Source: Rubrivivax sp.
GTDB taxonomy: Bacteria; Pseudomonadota; Gammaproteobacteria; Burkholderiales; Burkholderiaceae_C
Assembly: GCA_027490215.1 (NCBI GenBank)
Contig: JAIXYO010000065.1
Coordinates: 62,001 to 126,000, forward strand
Length of the DNA: 64,000 nt
Direction: 5' to 3'
The notes beneath the pieces were generated by a model. That model did no database searches. It had not been told where the DNA came from and saw only the letters and a list, made by a program, of their open reading frames with translations. Below, in pieces: positions 61,695-64,000 of this stretch. Every line of letters starts with the position of its first letter. Position 1 is the first letter of the stretch. A program made the translations under genes and the position numbers.

Positions 61695-63194
61695 ATGCAG
61701 ATCTTCTTTTCCTGGGCCCAGTTTGCCCGTCGCTCCCTCATGTCCACGGCCTTGAGGGCCTCGCGCCGTTCCGTCGGTGCGCTTGCCGCCGTGCTGGTGT
61801 TGTCCGCCGGCATGCCCGTTGTCGGACAGGCGCAAGGGCTGCCGGATTTCACGGTGCTGGTCGAGAACGTTGGTGGATCGGTGGTGAATATCCGAACTAC
61901 GGAACGGCCGCGGGCAGGGCGCGGCAGCGGTGCTCCCGAGATGGACGAGGATATGCTGGAGTTTTTCAAGCGCTTCGGGGTCCCCATTCCTGGTCCGCAG
62001 AATCCGCGGCGCGCACCACAGCCATCCGCCCCCCAGGAAAGCGAGCCGCAACAACGTGGCGTGGGTTCCGGCTTCATCTTGAACGCCGAAGGTTATGTGA
62101 TGACCAACGCGCACGTGGTCGAGGGCGCTGAAGAGGTCTTCGTCACGCTGACCGACAAGCGCGAGTTCAAGGCCCGCGTCATCGGCGCTGACAAGCGGAC
62201 AGATGTGGCCGTGGTCAAGATTGAGGCAGCTGGTCTGCAGGCAGTTCGGGTCGGTGACGTCAGCCGCTTGAAGGTTGGCGAGTGGGTCATCGCGATCGGA
62301 TCGCCGTTCGGACTTGAGAACACCGTCACCGCCGGAATCGTCAGCGCCAAGGCGCGCGACACCGGTGACTTCCTGCCCTTCATCCAGACCGATGTGGCGA
62401 TCAATCCTGGTAATTCGGGCGGTCCCTTGATCAACATGCGAGGTGAAGTGGTCGGCATCAATTCCCAGATATACAGCCGATCCGGCAGCTTCATCGGCAT
62501 TTCGTTCGCTATCCCTATCGATGAGGCGATCCGTGTTGCCGACCAGCTGCGCACCAGCGGGCGCGTCATTCGCGGTCGCATCGGCGTGCAGATCGATCAG
62601 GTGACCAAGGAAGTGGCTGAATCGATCGGTCTGGGCAAGCCCAGCGGCGCGATGGTGCGCAGCGTCGAGGCAGGAGGTCCGGCGGACAAGGCAGGGGTCG
62701 AAGCCGGTGACATCATCACGAGGTTCGATGGCCGCGCGATAGATAAGGCGGGGGACCTGCCGCGCATCGTGGGCAGCGTCAAGCCGGGGACCAAGGCGAC
62801 CCTTGAGGTTTTCCGCCGGGGTGCGTCGAAGGAGTTGAGTGTGACCGTCGTGGAACTGGAGGCCGAGCGACCGCGCAGCGCGCCGGTCGAGCGAAACACC
62901 CCGAAACTACCGGCAGTGATCGGGCTTCTGGGCCTCGCAGTCTCCGACCTGAGCGACGCGCAGAAATCCGAGCTCAAGGTCAAGAACGGCGTTCGCGTCG
63001 AAGCCGTCGAAGGTGCCGGTGCCAAAGCAGGCATTCGTGAGGGAGACATCGTCTTGTCACTCGACAAGACGGAAATCAGCAGTGTCAAGCAGTTTGAGGC
63101 CGCCATCAGCAAGCTGGACAAGCCGAAATCGGTGACCCTGCTGGTCAAGCGTGGCGAATGGGTTAACTACATCGTGATCCGTCCTGCGAGGTAA
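61695..63194 (+). CDS. mucD: periplasmic serine protease MucD/DegP (HtrA family)
   Basis: A 499-residue HtrA protease. Signal peptide to about residue 50 (ending GQAQ), trypsin-like domain with His in NAHVVEGAEE, Asp in DKRTDVAVVKI and Ser in NPGNSGGPLINM, then two PDZ domains (RSVEAGGPADKAGVEAGDII and VEGAGAKAGIREGDIVLSL). Degrades misfolded envelope proteins as the effector end of the rpoE operon. An alternative start at ATG 61740 would shorten the signal peptide region. Confidence 0.95.
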   Translation: MQIFFSWAQFARRSLMSTALRASRRSVGALAAVLVLSAGMPVVGQAQGLPDFTVLVENVGGSVVNIRTTERPRAGRGSGAPEMDEDMLEFFKRFGVPIPGPQNPRRAPQPSAPQESEPQQRGVGSGFILNAEGYVMTNAHVVEGAEEVFVTLTDKREFKARVIGADKRTDVAVVKIEAAGLQAVRVGDVSRLKVGEWVIAIGSPFGLENTVTAGIVSAKARDTGDFLPFIQTDVAINPGNSGGPLINMRGEVVGINSQIYSRSGSFIGISFAIPIDEAIRVADQLRTSGRVIRGRIGVQIDQVTKEVAESIGLGKPSGAMVRSVEAGGPADKAGVEAGDIITRFDGRAIDKAGDLPRIVGSVKPGTKATLEVFRRGASKELSVTVVELEAERPRSAPVERNTPKLPAVIGLLGLAVSDLSDAQKSELKVKNGVRVEAVEGAGAKAGIREGDIVLSLDKTEISSVKQFEAAISKLDKPKSVTLLVKRGEWVNYIVIRPAR

Positions 63195-63451
63195 CTTGGG
63201 AAGTTGGCTTGTTTGTGTGCGCCCACATTCTCGGATCTACTTGCCTCGTCAATCGACTGTGTCGTGTCATTCGACTGACAGCTGCGAGTGAGATGCCGGC
63301 CCAGGAGGAGCCACTTTCCCAGGGATGCGTAGTGCCAAGATAACAGACTGTTTTCTGTGCATAAACTGTGCACAAGTTTTCTGTTGGCGATGCGCAACGA
63401 TCGCCAAACAAGCACTGGCGCGGTTCTGCGGACATGCTTTTGGCTACAATC

Positions 63452-63521
63452 AAGTCCCAACAAGCAGTTGCCAAACATTTTTGTTGGAAGGCGCGTCAAT
63501 CGTTCGACGTGCCTTTTTTTT
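63452..63521 (+). ncRNA. candidate small RNA or attenuated leader of about 70-75 nt
   Basis: A TACAAT -10 hexamer at 63445-63450 is followed by a compact two-hairpin unit: CCAACAA/TTGTTGG (63457-63463 with 63481-63487) and the terminator hairpin at 63488-63515 with its T run. The expected product, from about 63457 to 63521, has the size and two-hairpin shape of many bacterial small RNAs. The -35 region is weak. It could also be the leader of lepA ended early by the terminator. No known RNA family was recognised. Confidence 0.4.
63488..63521 (+). terminator. intrinsic terminator
   Basis: A 10-bp stem AAGGCGCGTC/GACGTGCCTT (one G-T pair) with an 8-base loop is followed directly by an unbroken T run to 63521, eight T in all with two used in the stem. 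This is the best rho-independent terminator seen in the window. It ends either the mucD operon transcript or the candidate small RNA before lepA. Confidence 0.8.
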
Positions 63522-63524
63522 AGC

Positions 63525-63595
63525 TTCAGCACAGGCCTGCGGCCTTTCACATCGCTCCGCGATTGAGAGCTTTTGCTGAAACGGCTGCGCCGTTT
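63525..63595 (+). promoter_or_regulatory. stacked-hairpin leader upstream of lepA
   Basis: An outer stem TTCAGCA/TGCTGAA (63525-63531 with 63574-63580) encloses two hairpins, AGGCC-TGC-GGCCT (63533-63545) and ATCGC-TCC-GCGAT (63551-63563), making a three-way junction. Overlapping its end is AAACGGC-TGC-GCCGTTT (63579-63595). Two loops share the sequence TGC. The region may be a structured 5' leader of lepA or remains of a repeat element. Confidence 0.4.
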
Positions 63596-63638
63596 TGGCA
63601 CCTCATCGAAGCTCCACTGAAGAACACTCGCAGTCAGC

Positions 63639-64000
63639 ATGGATCACATCCGAAATTTTTCGATCATTGCCCACATCGACCATGGCAAGTCCACGCTCGC
63701 CGATCGCTTGATCCAACGTTGCGGTGGTTTGAGCGATCGCGAGATGGAAGCGCAAGTGCTCGACTCGATGGACATCGAGCGCGAGCGCGGCATCACGATC
63801 AAGGCGCAGACAGCAGCACTTGAGTACAAGGCGCACGATGGTCGTGTCTACAACCTGAATCTGATCGACACACCGGGGCATGTCGATTTCTCGTATGAAG
63901 TGAGTCGATCTCTGTCGGCCTGCGAAGGGGCGCTGCTCGTGGTTGACGCGAGCCAGGGCGTGGAGGCGCAAACGGTCGCCAACTGCTATACCGCGCTCGA
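63639..64000 (+). CDS. lepA: elongation factor 4 (LepA), 5' part cut by window end
   Basis: The first 120 codons of LepA, a ribosome-associated translational GTPase. It starts [20 protein letters not shown] (G1), switch I is [15 protein letters not shown], and G3 is [22 protein letters not shown] 63639 is the normal family start. The remainder lies beyond the window. Confidence 0.95.

Follow-up and report, generated by a model that had tools for sequence, protein, structure and literature searches.

A conserved candidate small RNA gene between mucD and lepA in one family-level group of Burkholderiales

The gap between mucD and lepA in a Rubrivivax sp. contig (JAIXYO010000065.1, of which we analysed a stretch of 64,000 nucleotides, hereafter the window) contains a short unit that, judging by the comparison of sequences across relatives, is a conserved RNA. 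We consider it likely that this unit is an independently started small RNA gene of about 66 nt with a regulatory role, and that lepA would be fed in part by read-through from it. Its range is one family-level group, which joins Comamonadaceae genera to the line of Rubrivivax, Leptothrix, Roseateles and Aquabacterium, and not the Burkholderiales as a whole. An earlier note made from the window alone had proposed a compact small RNA unit of its own at this place, which sequence conservation now supports; that first reading overlooked a pair of DnaA-box-like sites and a palindrome further upstream. The features are as follows.

61695 to 63194, forward strand: mucD/degP-type serine protease gene (Do/DegP-type), the upstream neighbour (NCBIfam TIGR02037, E 2.4e-144).
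63356 to 63375, forward strand: tandem DnaA-box-like 9-mers TGTGCATAA and TGTGCACAA, 2 bp apart and both facing the same way, which may form a double DnaA box (1 mismatch to TGTGNATAA-N2-TGTGNATAA).
63383 to 63399, no strand assigned: palindromic element GTTG-N8-CAACG, the sole GTTGSNNNNNNSCAACG match in the window.
63437 to 63450, forward strand: predicted core promoter CTTTTGGCTACAAT, with the -10 TACAAT at 63445-63450, immediately preceded by a conserved run rich in T and a C (TANAAT count given below; sequence logo).
63456 to 63521, forward strand: predicted small RNA of about 66 nt (fold z, covariance-model matches and covariation; the 5' end is placed from the -10).
63457 to 63487, forward strand: hairpin 1, arms CCAACAA (63457-63463) and TTGTTGG (63481-63487), with covarying pairs.
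63464 to 63473, forward strand: near-invariant apical loop GCAGTTGCCA, a candidate base-pairing seed.
63488 to 63521, forward strand: intrinsic terminator, stem 63488-63497 with 63506-63515 and T8 at 63514-63521 (fold and covariation).
63639 to 63998, forward strand: start of lepA (elongation factor 4), which runs off the window (NCBIfam TIGR01393, E 2.4e-66).

The positions that the earlier note gave for TACAAT, the CCAACAA/TTGTTGG hairpin and the 10-bp terminator with T8 are confirmed, and its statement that the start is distinct from the mucD 3' end (by more than 250 bases) agrees with the 250 bases that separate the mucD stop at 63194 from the -10. Hairpin 1 has 7 to 8 bp in the window copy, and the terminator stem has 10 bp, including one G-T. 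The fold of the RNA is more stable than expected from shuffles (z -4.5, with 0 of 200 shuffles as stable), and the folds of four relatives give z values of -3.4 to -4.2. The window has a single occurrence of the composite pattern of the unit, and 100 shuffles have none. Its parts are less telling: between 62800 and 64000 there are 2 terminator-like sites against 1.4 expected in shuffles, which is not rare, and a consensus scan for -35/-10 pairs, a simple sigma-70 search, returns none in the promoter of the small RNA because this promoter has no -35 consensus. The case for something better than chance thus rests on conservation. Mechanical open frames cross the stretch, and the lengths of the copies differ by 1 to 2 nt, which is ill-suited to coding. 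The RNA combines a terminal intrinsic terminator with conserved structure, as expected of small RNAs of the terminator type, and the terminator is followed by at least six T in 169 of 174 copies.

A BLASTN search with positions 63400-63540 in 60 relatives found 25 loci at E 1.3e-6 or better, every one of them upstream of lepA. Ten of these loci served to build a covariance model, from which the -10 was left out. In the window's family it matches 254 of the 299 genomes sampled and 121 of the 141 genera (E<=0.01 in both cases); the 45 genomes without a match are soft absences, since the filters were stricter in searches that spanned more than 40 genomes. E exceeds 1e-5 for ten of the 254 matches; six of these were inspected, of which four stand upstream of lepA and two elsewhere. 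In an order-wide search of 150 genomes, 26 match, of which four belong to the family and 22 lie outside it; the latter all score below 30 bits, and the six inspected (L096-L101) have no lepA nearby, an absence that is soft for the same reason. The earlier note had proposed a search for covariation across Burkholderiales; the covariation holds within one family-level group, and no match elsewhere in the order is convincing. A pattern scan of named genomes returned at least 119 stretches. By record title, the matches listed include some from Variovorax, Acidovorax, Comamonas, Polaromonas, Rhodoferax, Limnohabitans and Delftia, from Rubrivivax, Roseateles, Leptothrix, Aquabacterium and Ideonella, and from unassigned metagenome assemblies and one assembly titled Alphaproteobacteria. 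None of the matches listed is titled Burkholderia, Ralstonia or Bordetella, which is weak evidence of absence.

The earlier proposal hung on conservation of the -10 and of the first hairpin, and both are conserved. We collected 60 loci found by the covariance model (the 30 best of the family matches and 30 more, a few of them repeating genomes of the BLASTN set), 54 with lepA and six without. Among the 54, TANAAT is present at the -10 in all and the loop GCAGTTGCC in 50. There are two loop types: A, to which the window's belongs (CAACAAGCAGTTGCC), and B, whose copies mostly read CAACTATCGCAGTTGCC. Since an alignment of both RNA types by MAFFT misplaced hairpin 1, we used a model-based alignment instead, for which 75 loci were given and 72 matched at E<=1e-5, with 71 distinct sequences. 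Across these 72 copies, 98.1% of pair cells hold standard pairs, both partners have changed in 8 of 16 pairs, and double-change cells number 49, compared with 14.1 in shuffles; when the pairing is slid by 1 to 3 columns the paired cells fall to 36-58%. Hairpin 1 has both-side changes in 5 of 7 pairs and 96.7% of its cells paired among the 71 distinct sequences, some of the changes coming from rows that are misaligned by eye and were retained (e.g., L120, L171, L067, L134). One exchange is clean, at locus L084, where CCAAC/GTTGG becomes TCAAC/GTTGA. The terminator stem has 99.1% of cells paired, and its outermost modelled pair is G-C in 41 sequences and A-U in 29.

The region upstream was characterised in 174 promoter regions (78 type A and 96 type B), of which 93 non-redundant ones (33 type A, 60 type B) make up the promoter logo. 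TACAAT and the loop are circular in this set because both are part of its selection pattern, and the figures quoted for them come from the model-found loci. In most copies the tandem boxes and the palindrome stand at fixed distances from the -10. The window pair is the only match to TGTGNATAA-N2-TGTGNATAA in the window at up to three mismatches, with 0.03 expected. Of the 174 regions, 162 have TGTnnATAA-N2-TGTnnATAA, also at up to three mismatches, some 90 bp upstream of the -10, and none has it at nine control offsets. The palindrome GTTG-N8-CAAC (up to one mismatch) is found at about -63 in 142 of the 174 and in at most three at control offsets, those of 150 bases or more omitting rows too near a stretch end; GTTGSNNNNNNSCAACG is not rare by itself, as 0.41 matches are expected in the window. 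Among the 54 model-found loci with lepA, 44 have the box pair and 36 the palindrome. In four loci without boxes (L084, L086, L088 and L090), the distance from the mucD stop to the small RNA and its -10 is some 10 to 70 nt; the loop is changed in L088 and L090. One small genome (G321, loci L067 and L294) has three DnaA-box-like 9-mers; it also has a TTGACA near the usual position of the palindrome, too distant from the -10 to be its -35.

The tandem pair is mostly confined to this locus. In its strict form it occurs in five of 12 genomes, once each and always at the small RNA, and in none of the other seven. With two mismatches there are 34 matches in 26 of 38 genomes, of which 24 are at the small RNA locus, one in the same gap some 40 bp farther upstream (L280), three just upstream of dnaA (G032, G184, G253), one at a gene that we take to be dnaK (L286), one elsewhere (L298), and four were not inspected. 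The reversed pair pattern has no match in the 38 genomes. The window's own genome has no match at the two-mismatch setting, its pair being one base off the looser TGTGNATAA form. Two boxes separated by 2 or 3 bp upstream of a promoter, as at this locus, are the arrangement expected by sequence for members of the DnaA regulon, and DnaA of Escherichia coli favours boxes paired at such a distance (PMC11317965). By these sequence features, DnaA is the most likely protein at the tandem pair.

Two other readings of the control region have to be weighed against this one. The tandem TGTnnATAA repeats could bind a response regulator of the OmpR/PhoB type and not DnaA, a reading confined to the control region that we think rather unlikely but worth keeping in mind. 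Direct repeats of 11 bp are typical of such regulators, and the repeats here have this period; moreover, among 163 pairs the fourth base is T and not the consensus G in 56 first boxes (34%) and 62 second boxes (38%). Yet a DnaA box likewise leaves the fifth base free and ends in ATAA, the same tandem pair stands just before dnaA in three of the 38 genomes, and in one genome TGTTGATAA lies upstream of dnaA near TGTGGATAA, which is the DnaA box TTATCCACA as read on the opposite strand. Alternatively, DnaA might be bound only to be titrated or recharged, in a site of the datA/DARS kind to which the small RNA promoter is merely adjacent. The concentration of tandem pairs at this locus (24 of the 34) would suit such a site, and so would its position on the chromosome: on a scale running from 0 at dnaA to 1 at the opposite point, the locus lies between 0.30 and 0.65 in 21 of the 24 single-contig genomes measured (median 0.52, kinship uncorrected, and with three further single-contig genomes, G094, G186 and G325, omitted as they have no exact length). 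Against it, the spacing from pair to -10 is constant in both RNA types, which points to control of the promoter; there are usually only two boxes; and the small RNA persists where boxes were not found. We regard a titration site as improbable.

The other two readings concern the RNA itself, and the more serious of them, which we nevertheless hold unlikely, takes it to be above all the 5' leader of lepA, with hairpins acting as a transcription attenuator that sets read-through and the short RNA as a by-product. The linkage to lepA is nearly complete: its start lies downstream in 173 of the 174 regions, and the one miss (L209) ends 102 bases after the -10. The gap from the T-run to the lepA ATG has a median of 114 nt in type A and 45 nt in type B, and it is 0 nt in seven of the 173 loci (L203, L218, L116, L126, L127, L145 and L173, one of them from Aquabacterium fontiphilum). 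The short type B gap and the seven gaps of 0 nt suit a leader no less than a small RNA. With no room for another promoter, lepA would be reached at these seven by read-through only, so that the small RNA is there a leader of lepA too. These loci have no Shine-Dalgarno sequence at the usual place, because eight T immediately precede the start codon, and initiation of lepA at them looks unusual. On the other side, no frame common to the copies and no competing antiterminator helix is apparent by eye, the best-conserved part is the loop and not a switch helix, and in type A the small RNA is conserved and the stretch from the terminator to lepA is not, varying in both length and sequence. In the window, positions 63530-63600 of this stretch form by eye a run of short GC-rich hairpins; several related loci of type A show such a series too, its sequence varying between them. 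In type B loci (L020 and L070 among them) a conserved TTCAA-N-CACTT motif precedes the lepA ATG by about 15 to 25 nt, and their lepA start overlaps a TGA (TGATG), with no Shine-Dalgarno sequence apparent by eye; this overlap could reflect translational coupling to a short upstream frame. No common start codon of a leader peptide is apparent by eye before lepA in type B. The remaining reading, that the RNA is the 3' end of the mucD transcript or a read-through product halted by a plain terminator, would need only ordinary things, as terminators between two genes of one strand are common and terminator-like sites are not rare here. It accounts neither for a -10 and apical loop that are conserved besides the terminator, nor for the covariation of hairpin 1, nor for upstream promoter elements at fixed positions in most copies, and we find it very improbable. 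A free RNA and a leader need not exclude each other: the RNA probably exists as a free small RNA and also serves, in some lineages at least, as a leader of lepA.

Under the reading that we favour, an independently started small RNA gene, RNA polymerase would start at about 63456 from a promoter without a good -35, and proteins at the upstream sites would help or time transcription, DnaA being the likeliest at the tandem pair. Most transcripts would stop at T8, which would give an Hfq-type small RNA with a U tail and an exposed loop, whose GCAGUUGCC could pair with mRNAs; a fraction would read through into lepA. The near-invariant exposed loop, the U-rich tail and the presence of an Hfq gene in the genome fit a base-pairing RNA, and the small RNA probably acts in trans through its loop. 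The searches for partners of the loop count against this reading. For the complement TGGCAACTGC followed by the T-G-T-T-G spacing, only the small RNA itself was matched in each of eight genomes. The 12-mer TTTGGCAACTGC, at up to one mismatch, has 195 sites in ten genomes and is not commoner than its reversed control (222 sites). The matches listed include 48 places outside the small RNA with the core GGCAACTGC, among which we recognised no recurrent site at a start codon; at most of them the site falls within one of the three longest frames, on one strand or the other. An exact complement site common to three genomes of one genus lies inside a coding frame that we take to be leuD.

A bolder version is possible, and we put it forward tentatively: the small RNA may be timed by DnaA through the double box across the family, with its terminator also metering lepA, so that one promoter would couple the initiation of replication to a translation factor and to the mRNAs targeted by GCAGUUGCC. 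The physiological role of lepA is still debated. If the promoter is read by DnaA, then the replication clock would be tied directly to post-transcriptional control and to lepA. Even on the more modest reading, a small RNA found in 254 of 299 sampled genomes of a large group of environmental bacteria, from soil and water, for which we found neither an Rfam entry nor a paper, would be an overlooked core regulator.

Rfam has no match at gathering scores across the whole window, and around the small RNA unit only four weak matches at E up to 10. The only one of these over the unit on the same strand is to NcS25 of Burkholderia (Rfam RF02869, ncS025), at 15.9 bits and E 1.7; we rejected membership because the gathering score is 46 and the synteny differs, NcS25 lying between BCAL3007 (hypothetical) and the porin gene BCAL3008 (PMC10117139). 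The literature search covered titles and starts of abstracts in open-access journals, where we found no paper on a small RNA with lepA or in these genera, and none on a DnaA-controlled small RNA of this kind; on this scope novelty is provisional. The Burkholderia double-hairpin RNAs (Rfam RF02278; ncS03, ncS05, ncS27 and ncS62) likewise have two hairpins and occur in Betaproteobacteria, with lengths of 57 to 92 nt (PMC5688073). The window RNA has no match to the covariance model of the toxic double-hairpin family RF02278 at the gathering score or at E up to 10. In its general build it resembles Hfq-dependent trans-acting small RNAs, since it is predicted to be short, with its own -10, an exposed single-stranded stretch and a terminator, in a genome that encodes Hfq. 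Its control region resembles the DnaA regulon of E. coli, in which double boxes are described at mutH/DARS2, polA, purH, nrdA and mioC (PMC11317965): in both, two 9-mers 2 or 3 bp apart stand upstream of a transcribed unit, which here would be a small RNA. In Caulobacter, the small RNA CcnA is linked to the cell cycle, and weak DnaA boxes lie within its gene (PMC8959179); it differs in lying in the replication origin, in being presumably activated by CtrA, and in its length of 182 nt. Among the systems described in these sources, CcnA is the nearest idea to a small RNA controlled by DnaA, as may be the case here.
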